From Sulfuriferula sp. (lineage in GTDB: Bacteria; Pseudomonadota; Gammaproteobacteria; Burkholderiales; Sulfuriferulaceae): a DNA stretch of 42,333 nt. Within the stretch, counting starts at the first letter, position 1. Each line of letters begins with the position of its first letter. This document shows, piece after piece, positions 4,040 to 33,759 of the stretch. The stretch spans positions 1-42,333 of the forward strand of contig JABFSE010000007.1 of the NCBI GenBank assembly GCA_013140765.1, given 5' to 3'. A program made the translations under genes and the position numbers. A model generated the notes under the pieces. The model did not search any database. It was given only the letters and a program-made list of their open reading frames with translations, and was not told the origin of the DNA.

Positions 4040-6082
4040 CTACTCCACCCCCAAAGCCTTAAACACAGCATCCACTGGATCAGAATAGAAGCTAGTCTGG
4101 AACTTAGCGAATAACTCACCTGGTACAGTTGGTATATCAATCACGCTCGACATCGGCAACAATATCCTTTTAGCACCCGCGTCAAAAGCCACTTGCAAAG
4201 ATTCGGCTAGATTTCGCACTTGTACCACTGTTCCACCTAGGCTCATATCTCCCATCACCGCAATTTGAGACTGAACTGGTTTGGTTAAGGTAGCGGAACA
4301 GAGCGCGATAAAACTTGCCAGCGTCAGCGCGTCTGGCGTGCCATTATTCTGAAGTTCAACGAGGTGCAAGTGAAAATCATGTTCGCCAGGTTTAATGGAT
4401 GCACTAACACGTGATGCATTAGCTTTGAAGTAATCGAATGCCACTTTGACTGCTTCCTTCTGACCAGGACCTGAAATATTCAATTTACCCGAACCCGCCA
4501 TAGACTGAATCTCTAGTCGATATACGCCAGGAATACCAGATCCACCAACGCTAATAGTATGTAGCGTGCCTGGATTCAAGCGACCTTCAGGTATCAGACC
4601 ACCACCTGACTGCTCCGGAACCGTAATAAAGCGTTCCTGACCATCTTCCAGATCAATATAGCTGAAATGGACATCGTAGAATTCCATGCCGCCGATTTTT
4701 TTAAGCTGCTCCTTCACCCGCCGCCGCACTTCCAAAGCATATTCAAGGCATTTTCTGACGATTTCCTTCTCATATTCGCCATGGGGACAGACTAACTTAA
4801 GCAAGCCAGACACGGTGCGTCGCACGGCGATAGTGTCACGCTGGTTCAAGTTATTGCCGAGCTTAAACCACTTATCGATAGCATCAGCGAAATTCCACTT
4901 TCGCATCTCTCGCAGGTATTCAGCGAGGTAATCGACGATCAAACCATACTGGTTAGTAAAAAACTCTGGTCGCATCTTTGGAATTTCCCAGCCCGGCACG
5001 TAGGCATGGAAACGATCAAAGAATGCCGAATCAATCATCACCTCCGGGAATGGTGCCAATAGATGACTGGTTTTCACCAACGACTCCACGCTCTGATTGA
5101 TATTGCCGATAAACACCATGGAAGCGTTTGCATTAATCGACTCGCGGCCTCGGCTAAATGAACCGGAGGCCATGTAATCCTTCATGATCTGAACACCATC
5201 ATGATCTTTGAAGTTGATGCCCGCCACCTCGTCAAAGGCTACGGTATCCCACAGCCCGACCAAACCCACCTTACGCGAACTCATGTTATAGAACAGGTTG
5301 GCCACAGTGGTTTGCCCACCAGAAACCAGAATGCTGTTCGGGCTAATCTCTTTGTAGATGTGGCTTTTGCCAGTACCACGCGGCCCCAGCTCGCAGAAGT
5401 TATAATTGTTTTCCACTAGCGGGATCATCCGTGCCAGCAGATGCCATTTCACCCGATCTTTCAAGTGGGATGGCTCCATACCCGTTGAACGGATTAAGGC
5501 ATCGATCCATTCTTCTGCAGTAAATGCACGCCTGGCCTCAAACAGCCCTGCCATATCCATATTGGGCATTTGTATGGGTTTAAGATCAGTCACGGCGAAA
5601 GGTGACCCCTTCTGGTTTTCCTCAAAACGATATTGCAGTGTTACTATGCACCAGATACCACCCACCAGAAGCTTCTCAAAATCGCGTACAAACGTATCGG
5701 AAATTTCAGCGTTTTTCACCCCTAGATTCGACAGCAGTGCCTCATACACGTCGCGCTTTTCATTGAGCTTCACTGTCACTTTGTCGATGACCTTGTAGCT
5801 ACCACTTTCCCGAATTTTCGATTTGACCTTCTCTGCCTCATCGGGCCGCACATAGTTCTCAGCCAGAATCCGCTTCACACTGATCAAGCCAGACTGAATA
5901 GTGGCCTCATCATCTGAAGCACAATACATCCCGAGCAAATACTCCAGCACATAAACTGGAACGTTGGCACCCTCCTTAATCAGCTTGGTCAGGTCTTTGC
6001 GCACAACTTTGCCAGAAAAATGCTCAATCAAGAGCATATCCAGACTTTTTTCGGTGTTATCGGGGAGCATGGTTGCACTCAT
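4040..6082 (-). CDS. brxL: BREX system AAA+/Lon-like protein BrxL
   Basis: A 680-residue AAA+ protein with a C-terminal Lon-like fold, the last gene of type 1 BREX. BrxL forms DNA-encircling rings and acts as an effector against phage replication. The Walker A motif GPRGTGKS is at about 233-240. The Lon-like domain (about 500-680) carries the family signature GDMSLGGTVVQVRNLAES and ends AVFKALGVE. I do not see the P-x-D-G-P-S-A-G serine motif of true Lon; the aligned area reads NNGTPDALTLASF, which agrees with a DNA-handling rather than proteolytic role. The ATG at 6082 has GAGG six bases upstream and follows pglZ by 8 bases. Length is normal and no damage is seen. Confidence 0.94.
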   Translation of the reverse strand: MSATMLPDNTEKSLDMLLIEHFSGKVVRKDLTKLIKEGANVPVYVLEYLLGMYCASDDEATIQSGLISVKRILAENYVRPDEAEKVKSKIRESGSYKVIDKVTVKLNEKRDVYEALLSNLGVKNAEISDTFVRDFEKLLVGGIWCIVTLQYRFEENQKGSPFAVTDLKPIQMPNMDMAGLFEARRAFTAEEWIDALIRSTGMEPSHLKDRVKWHLLARMIPLVENNYNFCELGPRGTGKSHIYKEISPNSILVSGGQTTVANLFYNMSSRKVGLVGLWDTVAFDEVAGINFKDHDGVQIMKDYMASGSFSRGRESINANASMVFIGNINQSVESLVKTSHLLAPFPEVMIDSAFFDRFHAYVPGWEIPKMRPEFFTNQYGLIVDYLAEYLREMRKWNFADAIDKWFKLGNNLNQRDTIAVRRTVSGLLKLVCPHGEYEKEIVRKCLEYALEVRRRVKEQLKKIGGMEFYDVHFSYIDLEDGQERFITVPEQSGGGLIPEGRLNPGTLHTISVGGSGIPGVYRLEIQSMAGSGKLNISGPGQKEAVKVAFDYFKANASRVSASIKPGEHDFHLHLVELQNNGTPDALTLASFIALCSATLTKPVQSQIAVMGDMSLGGTVVQVRNLAESLQVAFDAGAKRILLPMSSVIDIPTVPGELFAKFQTSFYSDPVDAVFKALGVE

Positions 6083-6090: not shown

Positions 6091-8697
6091 TCAGAAATCA
6101 TTAGTGAAGGCGAGATCCACCTTCAAAGGAATACGCATAACCTCAACCTGAGTTGCCGCATCCCGCGCAATCAAGTAGTAATCCTGATTACGGTCATAGG
6201 AGCCAGATAACACAGTCAAAAATACGGATCGCTTTCTTTCATCAAGCAATTGCGAAGTGCTATCAAAGGTTAGCTTCTGCTCATCGCTGATTAGCCTATC
6301 GCCATCCCGAAGACCTACCAGCACCGTACGTGGTAGCACACGCTCTGATACCGGTTCGGTCTGGATGAACTCAAACCGCTGAGTATTGGTCACCACCTTA
6401 TTGGAAGCACCAAGCACACTAAACTCCACCATTCTGATTTTGGCTCCGTCAGACTCGCTCACACGTACGGTAATCACAGGCACAACAATCTCTTGCGGCA
6501 TGGCGCTGCCGTGAACAAAACGCGCACCCCCAGCAAAGTGAAAACGAGAAGCCCCTTTTGGAACCCAAAAGTCCAGACTACCTTCAGGCGTCGTGCCCGC
6601 AGTTAACGAAGTATTGCCACACCAAGCCTTACTACTAGTCCCAATACCCTGCCCCAGCAGATAACGCTTCTTCGCCTTGAGCGTACCCTCAGATTTTTCT
6701 TCTAATTTAGACTTATCCGCATCTTCCAACGGAGATTCCTGGTAAATAAAGCCATGATCAGCTGTTACCAGCACCGTCGAGCCATTCAGGCTGTTGATGA
6801 TGAATCCGACTAATTGTGACAGCTCAGTCAGCGTATCAGCAGCCGCTTCAAATGTCTTGGTCTCAGAACTCTGCTTGTCACCAATCAGGTCAATCCGATC
6901 GTGGTAGACATAAACCAGCCTGCGATCCCTAACGAACTCTCGCCCCTTGTCTTTTCCTAACGCCAGTAAATCCTCAGCTTTGATCGCTACGCCACCAAAC
7001 TTGGCAAGATGGTTGCTCCGTTGCTCAGTTGTAGCAACAATTTGACCATCCACCATCACATCCAGGTTACTGTTAATTTTGTAGGCTAAGGTCTCGTGGG
7101 GAAGCAACGCCGCCATACCTAAAGCGGTATAACTCGGCAACACACCCAGCTGACTGCCCAGAGCTGCCTTGAAACGGTTCTTGCTGTTGAACTCCTGCAC
7201 CAGCTCTTCTGCTACTTCATAACGGAAAGCATCAGATATCACCACGAATACGCGCTTAGTCCCACTCTCAAACAACGGCTGTACTTGGCGGGCAAAAAAG
7301 TCCTGCTGGTTGTCTATACCCGGAACACGCCAGGAGGAAAGCAGACCGTCATCGCCCTCCAACACCTTGGCCCAGGCCGAACCCAGTTGCGGAATAAACC
7401 AGCCTGAATAAGCAGCCTCAATAAGTTCACGCAGCTCATGCAACACCGCCCAGCCCATAGGCTCTACTGCTTCTGTGGCGTAATTGAAGCGGCGGTAAAG
7501 TTGATCCAGACGGAACAACTCGGACTGATATTTCTCCAACCCTACCTTGGCACTAGCAAAACTGAATCCACCATTGCAATTCGCTTTGAGCTCGAAGAAT
7601 CGCGCTGCGGCTTCTAAAGCATCATAGCTAGCAGCGAGTGCTTTAGTACCCTCATTGCCTTGTGCCAGCACGCGGCTAGCCCAATGACCATCACGGCGGC
7701 GAGCAATGAGCGCATATACACTCTCCATGTTCGCCCCAGCGCCCGCAATGATGCGATCTTTCAAATCTTTAACGATGCATCGTTCGGCATCCTCGAAAGT
7801 CATGGATTCTGCCAAATCCTCAGCTGACAGCCCCGCCAGTATAGGCGACAGATTAAATTCTTTGGCCACAGCTGCTGATATTGCATTGTAACTGGTGTAA
7901 TAACCCAAGTCAGAGCGCCAGCGCGCAGTAAATACAGTTGCATTTGCGGCCAGCGCCCTATCTGGCAACATAAAATGTCTCAAAGATTCGGGTATCGCCC
8001 CAAGAAGAGAGCGGCAGAAATCTGTCACCAGTATGCGGAGCAATAAATCCCGCAGCGTAGGCTCAGCTTCCTCATACCCCATTTCCTGTTTTGCCAATGC
8101 CCAAAATGCTGGCGCGAGGTCATTAGCCACAATCTCCTGCCAGCTTTTAGACTGTGCATTCAAATCAACCTCATCCTCCGCCGCCAGCGCAGCAAAAAGA
8201 CGCAGCAGCATAGCGAAAAACTCAGGTTGATCCGCACGCACCAACACCGCCAGCATCTTGCGATCCAGATCTTCGGCGGTGTCCAGTGGGACAACCAGCC
8301 GTTTCAAACGCTCCACACGATCCTTCGCGCGTAAAAATTTGGTGCGTTCCTTCAAATGACCACGCAATGTTTGAGAGGCCAAGCCCAAATCATCCAGCAA
8401 GATAGAAGTGGAATCCGCGCTAAATGTTTTGGCTCGCAAACGAATATCCAACAGCCAGTCTTTACTTGGCTCTAGCTCGGACTTGTTGCTGTAAATCAGC
8501 CAACGCTGATTCGAGGCGCACTCAAGATCAAGTTTTACGCGCAATGCGGATGTGTCATCCAAACGGATAAACTGCACTTCATCGAGGTCCAGGCTGTCGA
8601 GCACACCTACAAATTCAGCATCCACGTCATGCCAGAACACTACAGAGTGAGTGGTGAACAATGATGCCAGACTTTCGGAAATTTTTTGATTATTCAT
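6091..8697 (-). CDS. pglZ: BREX-1 system phosphatase-like protein PglZ, type A
   Basis: An 868-residue member of the alkaline-phosphatase superfamily essential for BREX. The metal-site motif VVISDAFRYE (about 485-494) and the later motif VTADHGFIY (about 644-652) are both intact. The N-terminal 450 residues are helical and PglZ-specific, and the C-terminal 150 form a beta-rich domain. The family includes metal-dependent phosphodiesterases or nucleases; its exact substrate in BREX is not shown here. The ATG at 8697 overlaps the stop of the helicase gene (ATGA), so pglZ translation is tied to the accessory genes upstream. An ordinary BREX-1 locus would place pglZ much closer to pglX; here about 7.2 kb separates them. 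Confidence 0.94.
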   Translation of the reverse strand: MNNQKISESLASLFTTHSVVFWHDVDAEFVGVLDSLDLDEVQFIRLDDTSALRVKLDLECASNQRWLIYSNKSELEPSKDWLLDIRLRAKTFSADSTSILLDDLGLASQTLRGHLKERTKFLRAKDRVERLKRLVVPLDTAEDLDRKMLAVLVRADQPEFFAMLLRLFAALAAEDEVDLNAQSKSWQEIVANDLAPAFWALAKQEMGYEEAEPTLRDLLLRILVTDFCRSLLGAIPESLRHFMLPDRALAANATVFTARWRSDLGYYTSYNAISAAVAKEFNLSPILAGLSAEDLAESMTFEDAERCIVKDLKDRIIAGAGANMESVYALIARRRDGHWASRVLAQGNEGTKALAASYDALEAAARFFELKANCNGGFSFASAKVGLEKYQSELFRLDQLYRRFNYATEAVEPMGWAVLHELRELIEAAYSGWFIPQLGSAWAKVLEGDDGLLSSWRVPGIDNQQDFFARQVQPLFESGTKRVFVVISDAFRYEVAEELVQEFNSKNRFKAALGSQLGVLPSYTALGMAALLPHETLAYKINSNLDVMVDGQIVATTEQRSNHLAKFGGVAIKAEDLLALGKDKGREFVRDRRLVYVYHDRIDLIGDKQSSETKTFEAAADTLTELSQLVGFIINSLNGSTVLVTADHGFIYQESPLEDADKSKLEEKSEGTLKAKKRYLLGQGIGTSSKAWCGNTSLTAGTTPEGSLDFWVPKGASRFHFAGGARFVHGSAMPQEIVVPVITVRVSESDGAKIRMVEFSVLGASNKVVTNTQRFEFIQTEPVSERVLPRTVLVGLRDGDRLISDEQKLTFDSTSQLLDERKRSVFLTVLSGSYDRNQDYYLIARDAATQVEVMRIPLKVDLAFTNDF

Positions 8698-11558
8698 ACA
8701 AATGGATCACCAAACACGTCAATTTGATTTCTAATTTTAGTCGCAAAGATGCCAAGACCGTCTGGCAAATGCGATTTTCGATAGCTTGGCACATGCCCAC
8801 CCAGTGAGCGTGAATCAAGCGCAGACAAATACGGTGACTCAGCACCTTTATCGGTAAGCACGAGAAGTCTGTGCTCAGCACGTGTCATTGCCACATAAAA
8901 CAACCGCCGTTCTTCATCAAGTACAGCGCGCGGTGTCACTCCAAAAGGCATAAACAGTAAGTTGTCAGGGTGAACTTTCGGAAATTGCCTTTGTGTCGCA
9001 TCCAAGATGATCACCGTGTGCGATTCTTGCCCTTTGGAGCCATGGGCAGTCATTGTGGAGATTTGCCCTTCTAAGGACTCTTTTGTTGCAGCGCTCAGCT
9101 TGCACAGTGCTGCAACAAGTCGATCTTTGAACTCACTGAGTTCGACCCCATAAACAAAGCCGCCCCTGGCCAAAATCATGGTCTTTTCAGTGTGCGCTTC
9201 CAGAAACTTTTCAGCACAATATTTCAACGCCTGCGCAAGTCTCAACATTGAGGGCGAAGGCGCTCTATTGTCTTCACGCTTGGGAAGGAATAGTCGATCC
9301 TGGTCACGTTCAACCTTGTACTGATCACCATCGCGGAACTCCAACCAAATGTCCCCCAAGTTTTGGGTTTTGATCAGCCCAGGGCTTGCTTTACTGCTTT
9401 TGGCAGGCTGCCCCCGCCCAGCCATTAGCCGATTTCCTGCAGCCACCACTAACGAATCGCTGCGATAGTTGGTCGTTACACCCACAGCATCCGAGTTTGG
9501 GAAAAAACTGCCGAAGTCATTAAAAAATCGCAAATCGGCGCCGGCAAATGCATTGATGGCTTGCCAGTCATCGCCAACAGCAATCAGACGGATGCTCGGA
9601 TTTGCCCTGAGGACCGCGTCGAGCATCTGAAAATAGAGCTCAGAAAAATCTTGATATTCATCAAGCAACACCCACCGCAATTGCCCCAGTGGCATCATTC
9701 GGCCTTCACCCAGGTGGATGCTGGCAGTCGCACCACGAACGCGAACTTCTTGTGTGGCCTGCATGAGCAGATCGTCAAAGTCCATGGCTTGCTCTTCGGT
9801 CAGCATGGCTTCGTATTCACGATAGGCCCTTAACGCCAATTCATGGAAAAGTCTCGCACGTGGCTCGATGTCTGGAGAATCGGCCAACTGTGCGGCAACT
9901 GTATCGACTGACCAGGCTCGCTTCTTTGACCGCTGAATGAATTGCAGGAACAACTCAGCCATACGGGAAATTGCAAAATCATTTTCAAAGACACGCCGAA
10001 CAATTTCAGATTCCGACAGCAATGTGCATTTGATGCCCTGCTTCTCCAAGATCCTTTGCAAGCTGGCCTCAAAGCCAACCCTACCGCTACGAATCAACCC
10101 CGTGTGAGTCTCCAGAAGCGGGATCTGATGCGCCTCCCAAAACTTCCGCTTTGCCTTGATTTGATCGCGGTAAGCTTGGGTGGATGTATCCCAATGCGCT
10201 GGCACCGCGTCGGCGGGGTTATCGGGATCAATGGCCCAATGTTCAAGAATGAAATCATGGCCACCCGAAACAATCGAGAAGTCCGGTTTGTAAACCGAAC
10301 CATCCAGAAAACCCACCTTCCATGCCCATGGCTTTTCATAGCGGTATTCGATGCCATGTTCAAACAAAAAGTCGGCAATGAACTTCTCTCCGTTCGACTT
10401 AACACGTTCCCCCTTGAGGGTCACGTATTCAAGTGAGCGTCGAAAAATTCGATAGTCCACCGGCGGCAGGTCTCTGCCAATACTTTCAATTTGCTCCAGC
10501 TCCTGCCTGAAGAACTCGACCATTGCCTCCTTAAAGGCGGGGTTCAAAATTCTCTCCATCATTCTTTGAGCAAACCGGCTTTGTTCACGTGCAGAAGGTG
10601 CGCCACCAGCATCGAACAACAATTTCTTCTTTGGCTTCACCAATTGATAGGCCAGACTGTGAAACGTTCTGGCATTGCTGTAGTCGGCAATGCCACCTTC
10701 CTTATGCAACCGCTTCTTTACGGTGACGGCTGCCGCCTTGTTGAAGGCCAAGATCATGACTTGATCAGGATTCAGCTTTTCATCACCAATTGACAAAGCA
10801 GCTTTTGCGCATAGCGTTCTCGTCTTGCCGGATCCAGCCCTTGCCGTTATCAATAATCGGTCTTCTGGGCGCGCATTGGCGCGAGCCTGTTCTTCGTCCA
10901 GATCCATACCGATGGCCGACAAGCGTTTCCGGACCTTGGGCAATTTCAGCGAAATGTAATCCTCAACTGGAAAATCAATATTTTTCGGGCGGTCGCGGTA
11001 CAGTGAATCCAGTTCACCAAGTGACGCCGAACAATAAGACTCTATGAATTGATGACGATACTTGGTTTCGACTACCAAGCCTTCAAATTCAGACCTTGGC
11101 CACCAGTCCTGACATTCCGCTCTGTAGCAGTCGTACGCTTCCTCATATTTCTCCAAATCCAATAACGCAGCAATTGCTTGCATAGTTTCACTCCGAGACA
11201 ATGCCAGAGCTTGCGCTGCCTTTGCTGCCTGCCGAATTGCCTCCGCCTCCAATGCTTTCTTCTTGGCGATCTCAAACTCAGCCCTATCCCACTGGCCAGC
11301 GCATTTTTCGTCGTATACATTCGTCGCCAGCTCGAACTTTCCAGATTGCAAAAGCTCAAGGATTTCAGCCTTTACCTGGCTGAGCATCCTAAGGCGAAAT
11401 ACCTTTTCAGCTGGAATTAAACCATCAAGAGGAATGCCGGAATAAACACCATATGGGAAAACAGCCTTACAGGTGCCGTTGGCATAAATCTCTACCAACT
11501 CACCAATTTCTGAGTCCAGTGAGAAGCTCCCATGCAGTACGCGGTCACCGGGTTTCAA
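8694..11558 (-). CDS. UvrD/Rep-type SF1 helicase with embedded PD-(D/E)xK-like insert
   Basis: A 954-residue superfamily 1A helicase. Residues 1-215 are an unusual N-terminal extension: a beta-rich start followed by Ala/Glu-rich helices. Walker A ARAGSGKT is at 239-246, DEYQD (motif II) near 631, the motif-III region GDDWQAINAF follows, then NYRS (motif IV), TAHGSKGQE and the motif VI block FYVAMTRAE near 891. Between motifs Ia and II an insert (about 385-510) reads E-K-F-I-A-D-F-L, then YKPDF at 423-427 and ILEHW at 437-441. This resembles the nuclease-like insert of helicase IV-type proteins (PDF...IEHFG). The start overlaps the DUF4263 stop and the stop overlaps the pglZ start. It may unwind DNA for the neighbouring nucleases, which is inference. 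It is not a canonical BREX component. Confidence 0.88.
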   Translation of the reverse strand: MKPGDRVLHGSFSLDSEIGELVEIYANGTCKAVFPYGVYSGIPLDGLIPAEKVFRLRMLSQVKAEILELLQSGKFELATNVYDEKCAGQWDRAEFEIAKKKALEAEAIRQAAKAAQALALSRSETMQAIAALLDLEKYEEAYDCYRAECQDWWPRSEFEGLVVETKYRHQFIESYCSASLGELDSLYRDRPKNIDFPVEDYISLKLPKVRKRLSAIGMDLDEEQARANARPEDRLLITARAGSGKTRTLCAKAALSIGDEKLNPDQVMILAFNKAAAVTVKKRLHKEGGIADYSNARTFHSLAYQLVKPKKKLLFDAGGAPSAREQSRFAQRMMERILNPAFKEAMVEFFRQELEQIESIGRDLPPVDYRIFRRSLEYVTLKGERVKSNGEKFIADFLFEHGIEYRYEKPWAWKVGFLDGSVYKPDFSIVSGGHDFILEHWAIDPDNPADAVPAHWDTSTQAYRDQIKAKRKFWEAHQIPLLETHTGLIRSGRVGFEASLQRILEKQGIKCTLLSESEIVRRVFENDFAISRMAELFLQFIQRSKKRAWSVDTVAAQLADSPDIEPRARLFHELALRAYREYEAMLTEEQAMDFDDLLMQATQEVRVRGATASIHLGEGRMMPLGQLRWVLLDEYQDFSELYFQMLDAVLRANPSIRLIAVGDDWQAINAFAGADLRFFNDFGSFFPNSDAVGVTTNYRSDSLVVAAGNRLMAGRGQPAKSSKASPGLIKTQNLGDIWLEFRDGDQYKVERDQDRLFLPKREDNRAPSPSMLRLAQALKYCAEKFLEAHTEKTMILARGGFVYGVELSEFKDRLVAALCKLSAATKESLEGQISTMTAHGSKGQESHTVIILDATQRQFPKVHPDNLLFMPFGVTPRAVLDEERRLFYVAMTRAEHRLLVLTDKGAESPYLSALDSRSLGGHVPSYRKSHLPDGLGIFATKIRNQIDVFGDPFV

Positions 11559-12787
11559 GGAGATATTCCATTTGATGCGGACACATTACGCTTCATCATG
11601 ACAATGATGTTTTCTAATCTGCGCAGCAGGTCATCGTAGGTCATGATGTCGATCATGTTGGCGTACTTTCTTCGGATAATTTCGAAGTCGAAGCGCTGCT
11701 CACTTGTGAAGTCGTTATCACGCCCGAGCAAAATCATTGCTTTTGGGTTTGTGATCTTCAACTCCATTCCATCGGGGAGTTCACTTTTACGTTTTTCGTA
11801 TATTCTCTGTTCACCAGCCTGGCCCCACTTACTCAAATGAAACAGGTATTTTTCGGCTTGCATCACCGATCCAGCAAGTTCGATGCGCGGTGTATGGTTG
11901 CCCCGGTACGCGTTACGTGACAGCAGCGCATTGGCGAACGGTTTCTTGACCTCAATGATGTCAATATTTCCATTGGCATCCACCAACATTAGATCAATGT
12001 AGCGGTCAGTGTCCTTGCCCTGTTTCGAGTAAAAGTCCTTGATGTGCACGTTTTCAAGCACCGCGATGTACTTCGGGAAGACAAATAGCAGAAGTTCCAG
12101 AATCTTCTTTTGCCAGTCCCGCTCTGAATAACCATCGACATCCTTGAGCATTCCTTCCAGCTCACTGCGGATGTATTCGAACTTCTGTAGCTCGAAATTT
12201 CCCAGGATGCTGTTTCTGGATGTTGCAACCAGGCGCTTCTTTTTTGCCAGATAACTGTTAAGTTGGCTTTCCGCGTCTGATAGCGTTCCAAAGTAATCTT
12301 TGAGCACCCGTGAAATGCGTGATCTAGCGTAGTGAGTCAGCTCGGTGCTGGTTGGGAAGGTTTGAATAAGCAGTTCAAAATCGATCAGCGGAATCGCAAC
12401 TTCGTTTTCACCGCCGACAATGATCGGTTCATCGATCAATTCATCGATTTTTCGAAAGATAGAAATATCTCTGTTCGCAACGAATACCCGAGGTTCAAGC
12501 TTCATGGCCTTATCAAGCAACAGGTCGTGCTTCAGCCCAAGAATGTCTTTGCCTATTCTGAAATAGCCATCTTGGGTTGTACCCAATTTGAAAATACGCT
12601 CTGCGCCATCCTCGTCGTCAGTCTGCTGAGCCTGTGAAACAAGATCGCCATTGGTGAAGGTAAACGTCCGACGCAGGGTAACTTTGCCATCCTGTCTGAG
12701 CTTTTCAGCAATCCATTGTGGGTTGCTGGACCCATCGGGCACATAGGTCAAAAGTAGTCTATCAGCCTGTTTTGAAATCTTGATCAT
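11555..12787 (-). CDS. DUF4263 protein, Shedu-like nuclease
   Basis: A 410-residue protein with a C-terminal PD-(D/E)xK nuclease of the DUF4263 (SduA) family. Asp265 lies in YIDLMLVD, followed by the IIEVKKP motif (E279, K281), with a conserved Q (SVMQAEKYL, Q310) on the next helix. The first 200 residues are a family-variable sensor-like region with several short beta-strands. Shedu is a single-gene antiphage nuclease system, and here the gene is locked in an operon. Its ATG overlaps the DUF1016 stop and its TGA overlaps the helicase ATG, by four bases each. It may be a stand-alone Shedu captured by BREX, or the nuclease of a two-gene nuclease-helicase module. The domain call is strong and the partner role is inference. 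Confidence 0.85.
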   Translation of the reverse strand: MIKISKQADRLLLTYVPDGSSNPQWIAEKLRQDGKVTLRRTFTFTNGDLVSQAQQTDDEDGAERIFKLGTTQDGYFRIGKDILGLKHDLLLDKAMKLEPRVFVANRDISIFRKIDELIDEPIIVGGENEVAIPLIDFELLIQTFPTSTELTHYARSRISRVLKDYFGTLSDAESQLNSYLAKKKRLVATSRNSILGNFELQKFEYIRSELEGMLKDVDGYSERDWQKKILELLLFVFPKYIAVLENVHIKDFYSKQGKDTDRYIDLMLVDANGNIDIIEVKKPFANALLSRNAYRGNHTPRIELAGSVMQAEKYLFHLSKWGQAGEQRIYEKRKSELPDGMELKITNPKAMILLGRDNDFTSEQRFDFEIIRRKYANMIDIMTYDDLLRRLENIIVMMKRNVSASNGISP

Positions 12788-13929
12788 TGACTGCCACCGT
12801 TCCTATTAGGGTCTTCCACTTCTTGCAACTGCTGCAAATCATTCTCGATTTCTTCCACAGTCGGCAATGCACCCTTCAGGTTGTCAGGCAAGGCTTCCAC
12901 CAGGGTGTATTCGCTCACGCCCATGGGTTTGTTCATGTCGCGCAGGGCAAATTCCACCTCGATGTTGTTTTTATCGCGGCACAGCAGCAGGCCGATGGTG
13001 GGCTGGTCGTCGCTGCGTTTGAGCAGGCTGTCCACGGCAGACAGGTAAAAATTGAGTTTGCCTGCGTATTCTGGGATGAATTTGCGGTTCTTGAGCTCCA
13101 CTACCACGTAGCATTTCAGTGTGACGTGGTAGAACAACAAGTCGATGTAGTAATCGTTGCCCGCCACTTCAAGGTGATATTGTCGGCCAATAAAGGCAAA
13201 GCCTTTGCCCAACTCCAGCAAAAACTGGGTGATGTGCTGTGTGAGTTGACGCTCTACATCCACCTCGTTGAACGGCGTCGTCATGGTCATGAAGTCGAAG
13301 GTGTAAGGGTCTTTGAGGGTTTGCTGGGCCAAGTCAGACTGCGGCAATGGCAAGGTGCGGGAAAAGTTGGTCACCGCCTTGCCCTCGCGGGCATACAAGT
13401 TTGACTTGAGCTGCAACGCCAACACATCGCGACTCCAGCCTTGCTCCAGGGTTTGCTCAATATAAAAACGGGCTTCGACAATGCTGTGGCACTTGGTAAA
13501 AATTTGGATGTTGTGCCCCCAGGGTATGTTCGCCAGCAACGCAGACAACTCGGTTTCAGTGCCTGCCCACGGCATATCTCGCAATTTGGCAACAGCCTGT
13601 TGCCAAATTGCAGAGTCGCAGTAGAAGCGAAAGAAAGCTCGGCAATACCGCAAGTTCTTGGATGAAAAACCACCCAAGTCAGGGAAGGCCGCTCTCAGGT
13701 CGTGACTGAAAGCGTCAATGAATCCGCTGCCCCATTGCGCAAGCGACTCCCTATCCACAATCTGCGCCCCAATTTCGTAGTACAGGGCAATCAACTCCCC
13801 ATTGGCGGCCAACGCCACTTTCATCCGTGTGGCATGGATTTTTTGCTTGATGGTCTTGAGCCAGTTCTGGTAGTCAGCCAGCACAGCGGGTGGGAGCGTC
13901 CGAAGGTTTGCCATGTTTGCTTCAGTCAT
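12784..13929 (-). CDS. DUF1016 (YhcG-type) PD-(D/E)xK nuclease family protein
   Basis: A 381-residue protein. The N-terminal DUF1016_N domain (about 15-185) includes ALYYEIGAQI, GGFSSKNLRYCRAFF and IPWGHN, and is predicted to bind DNA. The C-terminal nuclease domain (about 200-350) has D263 in YYIDLLFYH and E278-x-K280 in VVVELKNRKF, the full PD-(D/E)xK set. It often travels with restriction and BREX-type loci. Either GTG at 13932 or ATG at 13929 could start it; I prefer the ATG, which follows GGGAGGGGAGG supplied by the relic of pglX. A 31-base perfect hairpin lies inside the gene at residues 107-117. Next to it the sequence looks longer than the usual link between Q-Q-x-V-A and I-P-W-G-H-N. 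The exact target is unknown. Confidence 0.88.
   Translation of the reverse strand: MTEANMANLRTLPPAVLADYQNWLKTIKQKIHATRMKVALAANGELIALYYEIGAQIVDRESLAQWGSGFIDAFSHDLRAAFPDLGGFSSKNLRYCRAFFRFYCDSAIWQQAVAKLRDMPWAGTETELSALLANIPWGHNIQIFTKCHSIVEARFYIEQTLEQGWSRDVLALQLKSNLYAREGKAVTNFSRTLPLPQSDLAQQTLKDPYTFDFMTMTTPFNEVDVERQLTQHITQFLLELGKGFAFIGRQYHLEVAGNDYYIDLLFYHVTLKCYVVVELKNRKFIPEYAGKLNFYLSAVDSLLKRSDDQPTIGLLLCRDKNNIEVEFALRDMNKPMGVSEYTLVEALPDNLKGALPTVEEIENDLQQLQEVEDPNRNGGSQ
13581..13611. repeat. 31-base perfect inverted repeat inside the DUF1016 gene
   Basis: The left arm GCAATTTGGCAACA (13581-13594) and right arm TGTTGCCAAATTGC (13598-13611) are perfect complements separated by three bases. It is translated in frame as part of AIWQQAVAKLRD, and no other copy was noticed in the window. 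It could be a small mobile palindromic element, a regulatory or decay-resistant mRNA hairpin, or chance. Confidence 0.85.
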
Positions 13930-14027
13930 CACCCTCCCCTCCCGTAACCGCCTTCACCCCGTCATCCAGATCCAGGGTGATGGGCATATCAGCATCAAGC
14001 GCGGATAATGAATCAACGTTGCGTTGT
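13922..14027 (-). pseudogene. Relic of a second pglX 3' end
   Basis: Directly before the DUF1016 gene an open stretch reads ADMPITLDLDDGVK, then AVTGGEGDD and stop. The intact pglX ends ADMRIQLDLDDGVK, then a 14-residue VNYGKFG segment, then AVTGGGADD and stop. The DNA is also alike (plus strand CATCCAGATCCAG is shared at both places). The relic lacks the 42 bases for the VNYGKFG segment and has no upstream coding body; the frame is open back to about 14027, where likeness fades. Its GGGAGGGGAGG is the ribosome binding site of the DUF1016 gene and its stop overlaps that gene's start. Intact pglX overlaps the ATPase gene in the same way. It is most simply a remnant of the time when pglX lay directly upstream of DUF1016. 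Confidence 0.8.
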
Positions 14028-14031: not shown

Positions 14032-14769
14032 TCAATGAGTAACCTCACCCAACGCCCGATTGAGCTGTTCTCTAAATACTTTGAAACTCAACATAGCAGA
14101 AGCACGTTCTACATCTATTGGATTTTCATCCAGCCAGTCGCAAATTTCATCACCTGACATGTATGTGCCAAATGCAGCATCCAATTGTCGCTTCGCTGAA
14201 TTCGGTGAATTATCGTTACCAGAAATCTCTTCGAGATCGGCACAATTTACAACAGTAGGTTTTGCAGCACACAGCAACCATGCTTCAGATTTCGGCTTGG
14301 GCAACATAGGCACTCCTCTGGGGAATTCAGCTCTACCAAATCCATTCACCATGGATTGCCACTTTGCTTCCCACAGACCAGAAATGGAAGTTCGAGTGCC
14401 ATCACTGTCGCGGAATAGAACGGCAATCACCTGATCATCTCGCTCCTTTTCAATTTGCATCGCAATCTCCGCCAGCATCCAAGCATTGATGTAAAAATAT
14501 GCTGTTTCTTGATCTCGTTTCTTACCTACCAAGGAAATTTGACGGCGGTTATTCTTGCGGACTTGCTCTCGTGCTTTTAAACCAGTTTCGCTAACATATT
14601 GATAACCACCTGGAATCGAACGTAACTGGTAGCCTAATCGAGATTCCAGCATCTGATCCAGCAACACTGTCATAGGCCCGATCTGAAAATCCGCATCTTC
14701 GCAATTGTTCTGGGCATTTCTACACTGCCCAAGGTCAGTTGGACCCTCACCGCTCAACACAACAATCAT
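14032..14769 (-). CDS. Toprim-like protein, partner of the upstream AAA ATPase
   Basis: A 245-residue protein. The start MIVVLSGEGPTDLG places an acidic residue (E8) at the end of the first strand. VIAVLFRDSDGTR gives the D-x-D pair (D121, D123), followed by LPKPKSEAWLLCA. That layout fits a Toprim or DUF4276-like metal-dependent nuclease fold, as found in the second gene of OLD-like and PARIS-like ATPase pairs. The start overlaps the ATPase stop by four bases (ATGA), so the two are a coupled pair. The GC content looks lower than in the DUF1016 gene downstream. I cannot tell by eye whether it belongs to a named family. Function as the nuclease effector of the pair is inference. Confidence 0.65.
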   Translation of the reverse strand: MIVVLSGEGPTDLGQCRNAQNNCEDADFQIGPMTVLLDQMLESRLGYQLRSIPGGYQYVSETGLKAREQVRKNNRRQISLVGKKRDQETAYFYINAWMLAEIAMQIEKERDDQVIAVLFRDSDGTRTSISGLWEAKWQSMVNGFGRAEFPRGVPMLPKPKSEAWLLCAAKPTVVNCADLEEISGNDNSPNSAKRQLDAAFGTYMSGDEICDWLDENPIDVERASAMLSFKVFREQLNRALGEVTH

Positions 14770-15938
14770 GCTTTGGCCTCCGCCTCTGCACGTTGCTTTT
14801 CTACTAACGCATCCTGCTCATCCAGCGCGATACATTCCTCTGTGAGTTTAACCAGATCAGTATCAATAAATGCTTCACCCGCACCCATGACCTCAAGTTT
14901 TTTACCAACATTTTCCATCTCAAAGAATCGACGTATGCGGGTTAAACCAACCGTGTTTTTATAGATGTACTGTACAGCAACCCGAGCCACATCATCATCC
15001 AGGTAATTCAAAATCATCGGGCTATGTGTCGTCACAATAATTTGCTGAGGTGTCTTAACCAGCATATCTACTAGTTTCTCGATAATTTCTGGATTGATGC
15101 CATTCTCAATTTCGTCCAGTAACACTAGTGGATGATCAGATTCCGCCTGTGCCAAAACCGCTAAAATCCTAAGTAACCCATCGCTCAAATGAGTAGCTTC
15201 CGTTTCCAACTTTTGCTCACCGAATTGTTCAAGCACCATGAGTTTTTTCCAGCCTGCCCGCATACTTGCCACTTTAAAGTCGATCAGGTTCGGATAAAAA
15301 ACTTTTAATAACACCAGCAAGTGCTCTTTCGCACCGCCTTTGATGTTATGCAAGTAGCCAGACAGTTTTTCCCCACCCGCGCCAATATCATGGTCTTCTG
15401 CTCTGGCACGCTTGCGCAACAAATGCGGAGAAAGCAACTCCAATGAACGAATACGCCTGAGTTCGTTGCGCAATTCCAATATTGGCAGAGGTAACTCGCT
15501 GTCCTTGAGCTGCGAAAAGATGGAGCCTTGATAAGTAAACGAAATGGGTTGTTTGCGGCCTTCGATTCGATATTCCTGCCCACTGGAAGAAAAAATAATC
15601 TCCTTATTCAACGTGATTTTTTCCGACGAACAGCGCAAGTCGTGCCGATTAAAACTGGCAAGCCAAGTCAGCAACAATCCAGCTTGTGTGCGATATTTCA
15701 CCCCAAGCACGATATTGCTATCCTTAATAAGTTTACAATTCAATTCTTGAACCACCCAGCCACGAGAATCGAGCCAGTCTTGCACATTACCCGTCATAAG
15801 CTGAGAAATGAAGTCTATCCCTTGTAAAATCGTACTTTTCCCTGCCCCATTCATCCCAATAAAACAGTTAAATTTACTAAGATTCAAAACCAGTGAACCT
15901 ATCGACTTAAAATTTCTAATTTGGATTTTTTCAATCAT
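14766..15938 (-). CDS. AAA_21-type (OLD-like) ABC ATPase of a two-gene defence cassette
   Basis: A 390-residue SMC/ABC-like ATPase. It begins with MIEKIQIRNFKSIGSL and Walker A GMNGAGKST (28-36). Walker B LLDEIENGINP lies near 273 and the switch region TTHSPMIL near 302. No long coiled coil is seen. The ATG at 15938 lies inside the last codons of pglX (8-base overlap), with GGAGGTGG just upstream as ribosome binding site; a GTG and an earlier ATG at 15947 are less well placed. Together with the Toprim-like gene it resembles OLD, Gabija-like or PARIS-like ATPase-nuclease pairs. A 60-base sample (15001-15060) has 24 G+C, against 36 in 13381-13440 of the DUF1016 gene, which supports a separate origin. 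Confidence 0.85.
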   Translation of the reverse strand: MIEKIQIRNFKSIGSLVLNLSKFNCFIGMNGAGKSTILQGIDFISQLMTGNVQDWLDSRGWVVQELNCKLIKDSNIVLGVKYRTQAGLLLTWLASFNRHDLRCSSEKITLNKEIIFSSSGQEYRIEGRKQPISFTYQGSIFSQLKDSELPLPILELRNELRRIRSLELLSPHLLRKRARAEDHDIGAGGEKLSGYLHNIKGGAKEHLLVLLKVFYPNLIDFKVASMRAGWKKLMVLEQFGEQKLETEATHLSDGLLRILAVLAQAESDHPLVLLDEIENGINPEIIEKLVDMLVKTPQQIIVTTHSPMILNYLDDDVARVAVQYIYKNTVGLTRIRRFFEMENVGKKLEVMGAGEAFIDTDLVKLTEECIALDEQDALVEKQRAEAEAKA

Positions 15939-18900
15939 CAGCACCACCTCCCGTCACTGCTTTTACTTCAGACAATAAGTTACCAAATTTACCATAATTC
16001 ACCTTAACCCCATCATCCAGATCCAGCTGGATACGCATGTCGGCGTAGTGGCGGAGTTTTTCGTCGTAGGCCAGCAGCTCGACGTGTTTTTTGCGCAGCC
16101 CTTCTATTTCCTTGTTGATCTTGTTGCGGGCGGCGGTTGAGGTGGCGGCTTCGGCATCCTTGGTCAACATCTCGATGCGTGACTGGATTTTGCTGGTGAG
16201 CGGCACGACGTATTCGCTGCGCATCCGCGCCAGGGTGCTTTCGTTGTAGCGGTGCAGATAGACCAGCGCCTGGAATGCGCCCTGTTTGCCGCTGCTGAAG
16301 AGCCAGTAGATGGGGCGCTTTTTGTAGGTTTGCAGGTGGTCTTTGTAGAACTTGTCGGCAATGTAGCGGCGGATGGTCTCGTCCAGGGTTTCGGAGCCTT
16401 TGGTACCCAGGCTCTCGGCCAGCCAGGCCATGTTTTTTTCCAACGTATCTGGCCCCCAGACAGCGCGCAGGAATTCACGGATGCGGCTGGGCGCATCATC
16501 TTCAAACCAAAGTTCGTCGGTGATGGGGACGATGCCGTCGGTATCTGCGGGGAAGGTGGTATAGCGGCCTGGCTCGAATCCGACGTTGCCCGCGTGGGCA
16601 TAGATCAGGCCGGGTTCGTCGAGGCTGTAGCGGCCCATCATGCAGCCGATGGCGTAGGAGATCAGGCGCTGGCAATCTTTTTCGCGGTCGGCACGGGCGA
16701 GGGTGATTTGGGATTCGGGGACTTCGGGGGAGAGTTCGTCTTGCAGGCCGTAGGCATTGATGAACGCGATGTTATTGCTCATTTCCAAGTTGACCATCTC
16801 GGAGATTCTTTTTTCGCTAACCTCTTTCCATTTGCTCCATGCTTTACTTAATGATGCCCAGCCAAGATATGGTGATGTCTTAAAACCCCAGGACGACTCA
16901 AAAGAATTCCAATCTAAGTCAGCAATCTCAATAGCTCGTTTAACCGAGTTTGCGACATCCGGTAAGGTTGCAACGGGAACCCTTCTAATGTCTCCAATCT
17001 GATAGTGCAGTGTCGGATTAAGAATGTTTAAGAAATACTGTGTTACTTTGGAGTTCAATAGGCCAAGCAACGCGTACTCGGGATTATCAAAAATAATTGA
17101 AGGCGATACATCATCGAACCAAATGTTGCCACTTTCGTAACGAAATGAAATATCTCCACTGGTCAATCCTGACCAGGCAAAACGCTCCTTACCAAAATAC
17201 TTTGCAGCACCAAGACCAGCGCCGTCAAATGCACATAGATCACGCCCCCCATCCTTCCAGTTCAACACATGTTCAACATTTCCATGCCACTTTCTCCGTG
17301 CTCCACCTTTGGAATACAAATTCCACCCTTTTTCCAAATGACTTACCTCGTGCCAAAATCTAATAAATCGAGCATTGTGGCCAGTAAATATGCCCTTGGT
17401 TACATTTGGAACGACTGACGCAAGAGCCGGGAAATTTTCAAAACTTGAAAACAACGCATCTCCAACCCAATAAGCGATTGGATTTCCAGGTATTTTCTTA
17501 AAGTCATCAGGTTTGGAAGTATGAAACCAATCAACACTGTTGTTCTGTATGGCTTCCAAAGTCCTCGGGGATTGATTCTCGTGACCCTTAAAGTCTGATA
17601 GCTTGATGTAGCTGCCCTTAAAGTTGGATATGTGACGCTGTCCGAATACAAATGCGCATACTGGGACGCACGCTGGCTCAAATGCGTTGTACTCAAGTTG
17701 AATGAGAGACTGAATAGTTGCACGATCAATTAACTGGGCACGTATAGCTTCATATGAAGCGATAAACATCCAAACAAATGGCGTGACGTATCCCATCTCC
17801 GCAGAGGGTTTACCAAAGAGATGCCCGCGCTCTATGAACATCGCAAATACATCTGACTTTGTATTCGGGAATTCTGATTTCGCAAAACTCTTCATCATCA
17901 GATTCATTCCACCACCACCCATATACGGCGGATTCGCCACCACCGCATCAAACTGCATCGCCAGCACTTGCGCCTGCTGCACCAGCGGCAGCAAATCATC
18001 CGCAGCCGCAGTGGCATACATATCCCCACTCTGCTTGACCAAGGCCAGCACTTCCGGCAACACCGCCAGATGCGTCTTGAGCGCATAGGGAATCTGAATC
18101 AGCGAACCAAAGGTTTTGGCGTGCTCAAAGCTGTCCACCAGCGCGATGATGGTAGCGCGCTGCACCTTGAACGGGGCCAGGTGGGTGGCAAGTTCGTCCA
18201 CGCTCAGGCCCTTGCTTTCTTGCAGGCTCAGCACATTGAGCTTGGGCGGCTGGAGGTTGCCAGCATCGTCCGAGGTGGTGAACAGGCGGCGGTCGTCGGC
18301 GCGGGCTTTCATCAGCAGGGCAAAACCGGCCATTTGTGCGGCGCGGTCGTCGATATCCAGACCAAAAAGGTTCTTTTCCAGAATCAGGCGCGGGATGGCT
18401 CTGGGCTGGTAGCCGCGCTCCAGGTAGATGGCCTTGAGCACGTCATAGGCCACCACCAGTATGTGGCCGCTGCCACAGGCCGGGTCCAGCACGGTAATCG
18501 ATTCGGGGTTGAGGGTGTCGCCATCTTCGCGCACGCGGCTCTGGATCAGGGCATCGAGCTGCGCTTGCACCTCGGGCGTTTGCTCGGCGGGGGTGATGTA
18601 GTACGGCCACTCTTTGGCCAAGGTGCTTTGCGGGTTGGCCATGAGCCAGAGGCGACCGACGCTGTTTTGCACCAGGTATTGCACGATCCAGTTGGGCGTG
18701 AAGAGCTGGGTGGCGGCGGGGATGTCCTCAGATTTGACGACCTTGCCAATCACTTCGTCCTTCTTCTCGCTGATATAGAACTGGTACAGCCAGCCGATGA
18801 TTTCGACCTCTTGCCAGTCTTCCTCGGGGATGGCTGCTACCAGCTTGGCGATGATGGAATCGGTGCGCAGCAGGTTGTCGGGCAGCAGCAGCTCGGTTTC

Positions 18901-19425
18901 GTCGTCGATGCGCTCAAACAGGAAGGGCATGGCGTTGCTGAGTGCGTTGCACTGGGCGACCAGCAGCATCTTGTAGAGCTCGCCGTCTTTGTTGCCCGCC
19001 AGTTTGAGTTCGACCGCCTTGGCTTTGTTGTAGCCCGGCAATTCCAGCTCGGTGGCGTGGTTGAGGATTTCTGGCATGCCGCCTTCGCGGTTGGAAAGCA
19101 CACGATGGCCGTGATCTAGGTAGTCGTGGATTTCCATGAAACGCAGCGCGGCGAAGCGGTTGAACCAGGTGTAGGCAACGGCTTCCATGGTCTGCGTGTA
19201 GCCGACCTGGTGGATGCGCTTGATGAGCTGTTCACGCTGGCCTTGCACCTTGGCAGGCCAAGGTTGACCGGCGATGATGACGACATCACCACTCTTCTCT
19301 GCCGGGGCGATTTCGAGGCTGCCGCCCTTATCGGACAAGCCGAGCTGGTTGGCGCGAGTGGTAATAGCGGCGATGAAGTCCTTGCGGGCTTGCGGGGCGT
19401 AGGATTTTAGTTTGGATTTGTTCAT
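15931..19425 (-). CDS. pglX: BREX-1 adenine-specific DNA methyltransferase PglX
   Basis: A 1164-residue N6-adenine methyltransferase that marks host DNA and defines the BREX recognition site. The helical N-terminal domain runs to about 300. The SAM-binding motif DPACGSGH is at 314-321 and the catalytic motif NPPY at 498-501. A target-recognition and C-terminal region follows, ending in the family tail LDLDDGVK-VNYGKFG. Base composition is patchy: a sample at 18481-18540 (methylase part) has 39 G+C of 60, whereas 17401-17460 (recognition part) has 25. This suggests the recognition domain was exchanged. It starts 5 bases after abiEii, with no clear Shine-Dalgarno, so it is probably coupled. The stop overlaps the ATPase start. 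Length is typical and the frame intact. Confidence 0.95.
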   Translation of the reverse strand: MNKSKLKSYAPQARKDFIAAITTRANQLGLSDKGGSLEIAPAEKSGDVVIIAGQPWPAKVQGQREQLIKRIHQVGYTQTMEAVAYTWFNRFAALRFMEIHDYLDHGHRVLSNREGGMPEILNHATELELPGYNKAKAVELKLAGNKDGELYKMLLVAQCNALSNAMPFLFERIDDETELLLPDNLLRTDSIIAKLVAAIPEEDWQEVEIIGWLYQFYISEKKDEVIGKVVKSEDIPAATQLFTPNWIVQYLVQNSVGRLWLMANPQSTLAKEWPYYITPAEQTPEVQAQLDALIQSRVREDGDTLNPESITVLDPACGSGHILVVAYDVLKAIYLERGYQPRAIPRLILEKNLFGLDIDDRAAQMAGFALLMKARADDRRLFTTSDDAGNLQPPKLNVLSLQESKGLSVDELATHLAPFKVQRATIIALVDSFEHAKTFGSLIQIPYALKTHLAVLPEVLALVKQSGDMYATAAADDLLPLVQQAQVLAMQFDAVVANPPYMGGGGMNLMMKSFAKSEFPNTKSDVFAMFIERGHLFGKPSAEMGYVTPFVWMFIASYEAIRAQLIDRATIQSLIQLEYNAFEPACVPVCAFVFGQRHISNFKGSYIKLSDFKGHENQSPRTLEAIQNNSVDWFHTSKPDDFKKIPGNPIAYWVGDALFSSFENFPALASVVPNVTKGIFTGHNARFIRFWHEVSHLEKGWNLYSKGGARRKWHGNVEHVLNWKDGGRDLCAFDGAGLGAAKYFGKERFAWSGLTSGDISFRYESGNIWFDDVSPSIIFDNPEYALLGLLNSKVTQYFLNILNPTLHYQIGDIRRVPVATLPDVANSVKRAIEIADLDWNSFESSWGFKTSPYLGWASLSKAWSKWKEVSEKRISEMVNLEMSNNIAFINAYGLQDELSPEVPESQITLARADREKDCQRLISYAIGCMMGRYSLDEPGLIYAHAGNVGFEPGRYTTFPADTDGIVPITDELWFEDDAPSRIREFLRAVWGPDTLEKNMAWLAESLGTKGSETLDETIRRYIADKFYKDHLQTYKKRPIYWLFSSGKQGAFQALVYLHRYNESTLARMRSEYVVPLTSKIQSRIEMLTKDAEAATSTAARNKINKEIEGLRKKHVELLAYDEKLRHYADMRIQLDLDDGVKVNYGKFGNLLSEVKAVTGGGADD

Positions 19426-19430: not shown

Positions 19431-20381
19431 TTAGAGCTGGTCAATATGCTGGTGAATGCGAGCGAGGATGTCGCCAAACGGGATTTGACCGGTGTAATAC
19501 AGCGCGGCGGTTTCGCGATATTTGGATTCGTACAGCTTGCGCACTTTAGGATCGGAAAGCAGGAATGCTTCGTTACTGGTGATGTCCAAATTATCGCCGG
19601 AACGGAAGCGCTCTATTTTGCGGGCGTGATAAGTCGGGGTACCAATAAAGCTGAGCACTTCAGGACTATCGAGCAGGCAATACAGATCGTAATAATGGCG
19701 CATGAAGTTTTTCGGAAACTTATTGGCTTCCTGCTGCATACGAAATTTAGTCGAGACGGTTTGCAGCTTTTCCACAAAGGTATAAGCGGGACTGTAGCAA
19801 GCGACATCCACTGCCCGATTATCGATGATCGCGACTTTCGCTTTTAAGGCTACATCCAGCGCCCACGAGGAGATGGTGCAGGGGTTGTTTGGTGCAGTAT
19901 CGTCAAAGCCCACTTCCAGCAGGATGCCGTCTTTCACGCCATGCAACGCACGAGTCAGGATAGGATAATCAAGCAAGATGCCGCTGTTGCGATATTTGGC
20001 ATCGTCAAAGTCAGTGTCGCGAGAGACGGATATCAGCCCCGGAATTTTGATCTGCTTGGCCAACCAGTCAAAGAATTCACGGCGTGATGCTTGGTGAGCA
20101 GGTTTATCCTGATTTTTTCCTGTTTTAACGCCAAGCTCTGCGGGTGGCTCAAAGCGAATATCAATATCCTCTGAAAAACGATGGATAAGCTGGTAACCTT
20201 TTGATAACGATGTACCGCCTTTCAGCTCGAACTTCCAGCCCTGTTGTTGCAGCCCCCACAGGCAATGCATCAGCCAGTAATCTTTTTCAATCAGATTAGC
20301 TTCAATATTCAGTGCGTCTGCAATCTGTTCAAGGAGAACCAGGAAGCCTTCGTGTTCATGCAGAAAGCCGGGGGCTTTCAT
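19431..20381 (-). CDS. abiEii: AbiEii/AbiGii-family nucleotidyltransferase toxin
   Basis: A 316-residue DUF1814-type nucleotidyltransferase. The polymerase-beta-like core shows KGGTSLSKGY (GGTS at 55-58) and FSEDIDIRF, with the paired Asp at 72 and 74, the metal-binding set of the fold. The rest is helical. AbiEii-type toxins are nucleotidyltransferases that modify tRNA or other targets and are held in check by AbiEi. The ATG overlaps the stop of the antitoxin gene by four bases, as usual for AbiE pairs. It lies in the slot between brxC and pglX and is transcribed with them. Motifs are intact, so it is probably active. Confidence 0.9.
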   Translation of the reverse strand: MKAPGFLHEHEGFLVLLEQIADALNIEANLIEKDYWLMHCLWGLQQQGWKFELKGGTSLSKGYQLIHRFSEDIDIRFEPPAELGVKTGKNQDKPAHQASRREFFDWLAKQIKIPGLISVSRDTDFDDAKYRNSGILLDYPILTRALHGVKDGILLEVGFDDTAPNNPCTISSWALDVALKAKVAIIDNRAVDVACYSPAYTFVEKLQTVSTKFRMQQEANKFPKNFMRHYYDLYCLLDSPEVLSFIGTPTYHARKIERFRSGDNLDITSNEAFLLSDPKVRKLYESKYRETAALYYTGQIPFGDILARIHQHIDQL

Positions 20382-24681: not shown

Positions 24682-24707
24682 TGTGGTGTTTCCTATATTC
24701 TCTATTT

Positions 24708-27641: not shown

Positions 27642-27647
27642 TTGCGT

Positions 27648-33207: not shown

Positions 33208-33214
33208 GCCTGAA

Positions 33215-33687: not shown

Positions 33688-33759
33688 CTAGCGTGCCTTC
33701 CAAAAAGCAGCTAGATTGCATGAGTTTGGCGGGCAATGACAGGTGGATGGGTTGGATGC

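Follow-up and report, generated by a model that had tools for sequence, protein, structure and literature searches.

A BREX type 1 operon that probably carries a mobile DUF1016-SduA nuclease pair and an independently acquired helicase between pglX and pglZ

Do a DUF1016/YhcG nuclease, a Shedu nuclease and a superfamily 1 (SF1) helicase, whose genes run one into the next and finally into pglZ, form a single nuclease-helicase machine, or are they separate passengers of the operon that carries them? The question is raised by a contig of Sulfuriferula sp. (GenBank assembly GCA_013140765.1, contig JABFSE010000007.1, positions 1 to 42,333). This whole stretch of 42,333 nucleotides is called the window here. 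The three genes, all on the minus strand, are a DUF1016/YhcG nuclease gene (12784..13932; GTG start; 382 amino acids (aa)), sduA (Shedu, DUF4263; 11555..12787; 410 aa) and a gene for a helicase-IV-like SF1 helicase of the UvrD family (8694..11558; TTG start; 954 aa). They are part of a bacteriophage exclusion (BREX) operon; BREX methylates self and excludes phage. We consider it likely that the interval between pglX and pglZ of this BREX-1 operon is a cargo slot with layered nuclease cargo, in which a mobile DUF1016-SduA pair has been joined by a helicase acquired independently. A first-pass annotation of the window had placed the three genes, named their families and assigned them to one operon with pglZ, and the open reading frame (ORF) calls, Pfam scores and junction overlaps bear this out.

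The type 1 BREX operon is complete and lies on the minus strand in the order brxA, brxB, brxC, pglX, pglZ, brxL. The first three genes occupy 21073..25933, and brxL (4040..6082) was recognised by Pfam and PADLOC. The BREX-1 methyltransferase gene pglX (15931..19425) scores 1407.4 bits with NF033452 (cut-off 500), and pglZ (6091..8697), which is overlapped by the helicase stop, encodes a BREX-1 PglZ of type A (TIGR02687, 1041.4 bits; cut-off 270.35). By gene content, gene order and curated scores, the locus is BREX type 1. The genes between pglX and pglZ are, in transcription order, those for an AAA_21 ATPase, its partner protein, DUF1016/YhcG, SduA and the SF1 helicase.

The DUF1016 protein matches the Pfam families YhcG_C (221 bits; cut-off 32.5) and DUF1016_N (132.5 bits; cut-off 32.8) and the PADLOC model PDC-S02 (476.8 bits). 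It has both the N-terminal and the PD-(D/E)xK domain of DUF1016/YhcG nucleases, and its active site is intact: residues D264, E279 and K281 are conserved, with E279 invariant or nearly so in both alignments. No solved structure was matched by its sequence at E 0.01. SduA matches Pfam SduA_C (133.3 bits; cut-off 27) and, over residues 1-401, the PADLOC SduA model (560.5 bits). Its PD-(D/E)xK residues D265, E279 and K281 are invariant in an alignment of 8 sequences, and PDB entries 8ps4/8ps5 align colinearly with residues 3-399 of 410 (E 5.6e-97). Domain content and full-length colinearity both identify 11555..12787 as a predicted Shedu gene.

To place this gene in context, we have relied on SduA relatives drawn from 84,980 species, each represented by a single genome (8 loci, sought with two peptide patterns only), from plasmids (8 records), from the class (a match in 8 of 369 genomes) and from viral contigs (1 locus). 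Two of the loci, L028 and L017, are the same contig. SduA proteins at least 60% identical to that of the window occur at eight loci: the window itself, L023 (89%), L024 (73%), L025 (71%), L010 (70%), L016 (70%), L026 (69%) and L030 (62%). Seven of the eight are within BREX operons, and the association of this Shedu with BREX that the first-pass annotation pointed out is real. DUF1016 is directly upstream of SduA in five (the window, L023, L025, L010 and L016), with the two genes overlapping by 4-8 bases in all four loci other than the window; L024, L026 and L030 have SduA without DUF1016. The window-type helicase is absent from the other seven loci. This includes the nearest kin, L023 from Gallionella, whose brxC, pglX, pglZ and brxL are 64-84% identical to those of the window and which has the pair and no such helicase. 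L023 also has AbiE genes and an AAA pair, the latter downstream of SduA, and the gene before its pglZ is another ORF (AlbA-like by ORF reading).

The identities within the operons are instructive. In L010, SduA is 70% and DUF1016 75% identical to the window proteins, against 38% for PglX and 30% for PglZ; the corresponding values for L016 are 70% and 82% against 38% and 31%. In L025 they are 71% and 86% against 31% for PglZ, with pglX off the contig. With DUF1016 conserved at 75-86% and SduA at 70-71% where PglZ reaches only 30-31%, it follows that the pair moves between BREX operons at the pglX-pglZ junction. The adjacency of DUF1016 and SduA thus recurs across diverged BREX cores (5/8 loci, in a set anchored on SduA), and that of all three genes is found at one locus of the eight, the window itself.

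More distant relatives of SduA have other surroundings. That of L029 (Arthrobacter) lies in a BREX operon between pglX and pglZ, without DUF1016, and L012, L013, L014, L015, L018, L027, L028, L033 and L141 gave no match to a BREX core, DUF1016 or the helicase. In a tree of 18 SduA sequences the window protein pairs with that of L023 (support 100/99) and the BREX and non-BREX copies are interleaved, with several weak forks. Among 5,426 complete genomes of E. coli, seven match the searched part of the trio region, over 64 bases only; the one examined encodes a Shedu protein, and neither BREX nor DUF1016 was matched within 9 kb of it. The viral contigs yielded one distant SduA (42%).

A separate observation concerns PglX, which is split into two ORFs near the position of window-PglX residue 577-617 in L024 (8026-16022), L030 (8055-13013) and L075 (1776-8487), in pglZ-forward orientation; it is also broken in L056 (9057-12875). 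The halves enclose SduA in L030, a reverse transcriptase in L075 and both genes in L024 (where the reverse transcriptase is of the UG5-nitrilase type by PADLOC), and 4-base overlaps occur at 4/7 of the split-PglX junctions. The split point resembles the hsdM/hsdS boundary, which is the site of DUF1016 in type I restriction operons.

BREX-1 pglX-pglZ slots were also sampled without regard to cargo. PglZ was found in 14 of the 369 genomes of the class (E <= 1e-10) and in 12 of 398 genomes of the phylum (E <= 1e-30), the window genome being present in both sets. Twenty-three PglZ regions were examined and 13 counted as readable BREX-1 slots. Ten were left out: in L057 and L059 the contig does not include pglX, and in L060-L067 the BREX-1 pglX/pglZ match was weak or lacking. 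L068 and L072 were kept even with pglX partial on the contig, and G476 was excluded since its pglZ is at a contig edge. Matches were first taken above 60 bits, and the search for the three genes was then repeated without that filter. Neither DUF1016 nor SduA had a match in the 13 slots at E <= 1e-5. The sole match to any of the three genes in the 23 regions covers 87 helicase residues (34% identity, 47 bits; L075 13632-13883). When the window and L016 are added, the pair is present in 2/15 slots and the window-type helicase in 1/15, again the window. The first-pass annotation proposed that the helicase is strictly coupled to the two nucleases, which is not supported: in both samples (1/8 SduA loci, 1/15 slots) the only locus with this helicase is the window. 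It had stated that independent occurrence without conserved adjacency would refute its proposal; this applies to the trio and not to the DUF1016-SduA pair, adjacent in 5/8 loci.

Slot cargo is variable. Seven of the 13 slots carry something else (small ORFs, AAA pairs by ORF reading, GmrSD-like genes or a reverse transcriptase) and the remaining six have no ORF of at least 100 aa. L069, from a relative of the same order with a BREX core 56-91% identical to that of the window, has none of the three genes in its slot but a single ORF of at least 100 aa (294 aa, no Pfam match). One of the seven, that of L075, lacks SduA and DUF1016 and has another helicase of the UvrD family (957 aa; 30.7 bits with Pfam UvrD-helicase), whose best blastp match to the window helicase has an E value of 0.26. 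This example indicates that the slot can take up SF1 helicases independently. The same stretch of L075 (8532-15044, pglZ-forward) also holds a GmrSD-like ORF (by ORF reading) and an ORF of 567 aa that matches the window helicase over a short stretch.

The window helicase matches Pfam UvrD-helicase (120.6 bits; cut-off 23) and UvrD_C (58.1 bits; cut-off 25.6), has an N-terminal extension of about 200 aa, and conserves the helicase motif residues in alignments. Its best NCBIfam family is DNA helicase IV (PRK11054); since the score of 182.2 bits is under the cut-off of 543, it is filed only as helicase-IV-like. At E <= 1e-60 it was found in 3/369 genomes of the class (its own, one with a full-length match at 61% and one with a partial match at 38%), in 1/398 of the phylum (its own) and in 1/46 genomes of relatives (its own); at the thresholds used, no genome of these 46 other than that of the window has the helicase or SduA. 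The only close relative, full-length and 61% identical, is on a plasmid of Candidatus Tenderia (G242 shares its coordinates with this match and was taken as the same record), where no BREX, SduA or DUF1016 match was found within 12 kb; genes for SspB and SspC are some 5 kb away from it. The Tenderia protein has ATG at the residue aligned with the TTG start of the window gene, which fits that start. Relatives on viral contigs are at most 35% identical, and in phage records only the helicase, of the three genes, had matches, all below 60%. Either the helicase was acquired at its place between SduA and pglZ, or it has been lost from other operons.

The first-pass annotation had also described a nuclease-like insert within the helicase, and this is supported. 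The insert comprises residues 372-512 (10023..10445, minus strand). A model of the whole helicase has a mean predicted local distance difference test (pLDDT) value of 70.3, and its Foldseek matches (UvrD, AddAB, RecBCD and so on) are uninformative on the insert. Folded alone, the insert reaches a mean pLDDT of 89.9. With VIA-align 2 its top match is the catalytic domain of the homing endonuclease I-Bth0305I (Z 10.4, 98 residues, 2.4 A), followed by two mitoribosome chains of Toxoplasma (Z 9.6 and 9.3) and then by Vsr (Z 9.2, 109 residues, 3.5 A); with Foldseek alone, nothing in the PDB was matched at E <= 0.001. The models thus predict a nuclease-like fold of the Vsr/homing-endonuclease kind. 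Among 24 aligned inserts, 11 match Pfam Phage_endo_I when E values up to 1 are allowed (best 6.6e-4); the window insert itself has no Pfam match even at this threshold. Residues E391 (in the first helix), P425-D426-F427 and E439 are invariant in the 24 sequences, and the position of the PD-(D/E)xK lysine holds H or Y. With this lysine replaced, the insert is only a putative nuclease. The PDF motif is present in 31/38 helicase relatives from viral contigs; inserts of this kind are thus a feature of a wide family of helicases and not of BREX.

The history of the slot can be read in part from the other end of the cargo. The gene after pglX encodes an AAA_21/OLD-like ATPase (14766..15947, minus strand; Pfam, and PADLOC PDC-M25A at 531.6 bits) and is followed by its partner (14032..14769, minus strand; PADLOC PDC-M25B, no Pfam match), which we take to be DUF4276-like. 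Between the partner and DUF1016 lies a second, degraded pglX 3' end (13922..13996, minus strand; blastn-short E 2e-06, 23/25 bases). It is in the pglX reading frame, with similar C-terminal residues, and its stop overlaps the DUF1016 start, as the stop of intact pglX overlaps the DUF1016 start in L023 and L016. This remnant is a footprint of cargo insertion and its position before DUF1016 indicates that the AAA pair probably entered later, between pglX and DUF1016. In the simplest history pglX, DUF1016 and SduA came first and the AAA pair was then inserted together with a fresh pglX end.

The slot would then work as follows. The short stop-start overlaps would keep the cargo, including the AAA/DUF4276-like pair that probably arrived later, in phase with the operon, so that all the proteins are made together, and each nuclease would most likely be its own layer behind BREX. 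By analogy with the solved homologue, the N-terminal part of SduA would bind the ends of linear phage DNA and its PD-(D/E)xK domain would nick nearby. DUF1016, whose active-site residues are conserved, would be a second DNA nuclease of a kind linked to methyltransferase operons, with DNA as its presumed target. The helicase might unwind DNA that is nicked or has free ends, or resect it, and its insert may cut.

Several points weigh against this explanation. At L026 no BREX match was found within 10 kb of SduA. The set of eight loci is small and, being anchored on SduA, inflates the adjacency of DUF1016. Helicases do recur as BREX cargo, as L075 shows, although that helicase is of another subfamily. 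The G+C content of third codon positions (GC3) gives no sign of a separate recent arrival of helicase or SduA: their values (0.52 and 0.55) are close to those of brxL, pglZ, brxC and brxB (0.52-0.54). A higher GC3 is shared by pglX (0.65) and DUF1016 (0.68) and a lower one by the AAA ATPase (0.46) and its partner (0.40), from which no conclusion is drawn. Finally, the pair, or in this organism the pair with the helicase, could be one functional unit.

This last point leads to the strongest alternative, in which DUF1016 and SduA are a true two-protein restriction module associated with BREX, with the helicase as a bystander. SduA might be gated by DUF1016 or docked by it on the BREX complex, or DUF1016 might read self through PglX methylation. 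The recurrent adjacency (5/8 SduA loci) and the overlaps of 4-8 bases in four other loci are in its favour, although the adjacency is seen from the SduA side only, the loci having been gathered through SduA, and SduA does without DUF1016 in L024, L026 and L030. Of 474 plasmid records with a DUF1016 relative, only two are at 60-80% identity and the one among the matches listed is the BREX pair in Methylomonas. Restriction genes are named in 8 of the 40 matches listed. In three of five plasmid regions, hand-picked from these 40 (two were already annotated with restriction genes), DUF1016 comes after a methyltransferase gene and is followed by a specificity gene; it is solitary in the other two. 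The first-pass annotation had suggested, as another option, a restriction arm for which BREX methylation would serve as the self-mark. The closest characterised SduA is reported to act on DNA ends (PMC12904381, in part), but the three plasmid regions make a link with methylation conceivable for DUF1016. In viral contigs a single-sequence query found no DUF1016 match; an alignment query found 30 loci, none above 50% identity save for one 85-residue stretch at 60%. Published work on Shedu, drawn on here only in part, points both ways. EcSduA is described as a homotetramer in which an N-terminal clamp holds DNA ends and nicks are made a set distance away; Shedu is toxic when expressed heterologously, and specificity determinants still to be identified may exist (PMC12904381, in part), so that a partner is conceivable. 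Shedus of types I and II are, however, described as single-protein systems (PMC12409362, in part). We regard the two-protein module as a tentative possibility and, on balance, as unlikely. A more specific version is more doubtful still: that the pair is a two-protein effector which BREX recruits at the boundary between methyltransferase and target recognition, as type I restriction systems do DUF1016, with a nuclease that senses DNA ends gated by the BREX complex or by its methylation mark.

The idea of one nuclease-helicase machine, in which the helicase exposes DNA or feeds it to both nucleases, rests on the gene overlaps. These are as the first-pass annotation described them: DUF1016/SduA (12784-12787), SduA/helicase (11555-11558) and helicase/pglZ (8694-8697) each overlap by exactly 4 bases, in an unbroken series, and the helicase motifs and both nuclease active sites are intact. 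Such overlaps also join unrelated neighbours. They occur in 7 of 18 adjacent pairs among the 19 window genes listed (2750-33324), including brxA/brxB, AbiEi/AbiEii, the AAA ATPase and its presumed DUF4276-like partner, and an SbcCD-like pair, and at 12 of 18 hand-picked junctions in seven other loci (with starts mostly from the longest ORF), including SduA/reverse transcriptase and pglX/SduA. As a sign of joint function they were rejected for this reason; the overlaps reflect cargo fitted into one operon and do not prove a machine. The helicase is, moreover, absent from the seven other loci with close SduA relatives, L023 among them, and from the 13 sampled BREX-1 slots, and its close relative is without these neighbours. 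With the trio adjacent in 1/8 loci, the three-gene machine is very improbable and was rejected. Finally, PADLOC ranks the GajB model of Gabija first for the helicase (133.7 bits, over partial stretches), but a GajB identity is scarcely credible and was rejected: no GajA partner was found beside it (the nearby ATPase scores 531.6 bits with PDC-M25A and just 66 with GajA) and its best curated family is helicase IV.

Other features of the window surround the operon. Cargo is also present between brxC and pglX, where AbiEii and AbiEi genes lie (19431..21010, minus strand). Upstream of brxA is a gene for a WYL-domain regulator (25860-26774), which overlaps the brxA start as called. Next to BREX is an operon of SbcD-like and SbcC-like genes (26886-31915) in which the SbcC part is two ORFs (991 and 251 aa); in the Methylomonas plasmid L010, genes for a DNA repair exonuclease and a YhaN-family protein follow brxL. 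A GmrSD N-terminal protein of 330 aa (2750-3742) has no match to the C-terminal nuclease domain and may be truncated; transposase genes (1079-2616) adjoin it. An IS66 transposase gene and a tRNA-Ser gene (34967-35056) lie within 32068-35056, near the border between defence and housekeeping genes (NAD synthase, succinyl-CoA ligase and thymidylate synthase). This is a possible island boundary.

We return to the preferred explanation, a cargo slot with a mobile pair and a helicase acquired on its own. The restriction of phage by BREX is still poorly understood. When the nuclease activity of PglZ is ablated, protection falls by about 3 logs and the system is still active (PMC12205998, in part). 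In view of this remaining activity, it is natural to look to the nucleases translated together with pglZ for a further contribution. The recurrence of a compact DUF1016-SduA pair in BREX operons whose cores are hardly related offers a clear way to test whether Shedu acts alone or together with BREX. In the literature searched, which covers few subscription journals, DUF1016 appears with BREX in one paper only, in unrelated remarks, and BREX, UvrD, Shedu and operon nowhere occur together; BREX-borne Shedu is already published and a mobile DUF1016-SduA pair was not found.

How, then, does the locus compare with known systems? The nearest are BREX-1 operons with auxiliary nucleases. Rakesh and Krishnan (2026, PMC12839542, in part) describe such nucleases, PD-(D/E)xK enzymes being the commonest, embedded in BREX operons, and attribute an earlier link between Shedu and BREX to Gu et al. 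(2025). As in the window, the core forms one operon with extra nucleases, including Shedu, inside it; the main text has no mention of DUF1016, YhcG, UvrD or HelD, and the parts consulted do not describe the DUF1016-SduA pairing. The helicase shares its core with DNA helicase IV and with the UvrD-family helicases of viral contigs, and differs from helicase IV in scoring well under the cut-off of that family. With the solved Shedu of 8ps4/8ps5 the window SduA has an end-to-end alignment in common; it is not solitary but embedded in BREX, next to DUF1016. We take 8ps4 to be the Shedu protein from E. coli KTE10 (Loeff et al. 2025, cited in PMC12904381). The DUF1016/YhcG proteins of type I restriction-modification operons are 49-51% identical to that of the window, have the same domains and the same active site, and are encoded directly after the methyltransferase gene, whereas the window gene follows a pglX end and precedes sduA.

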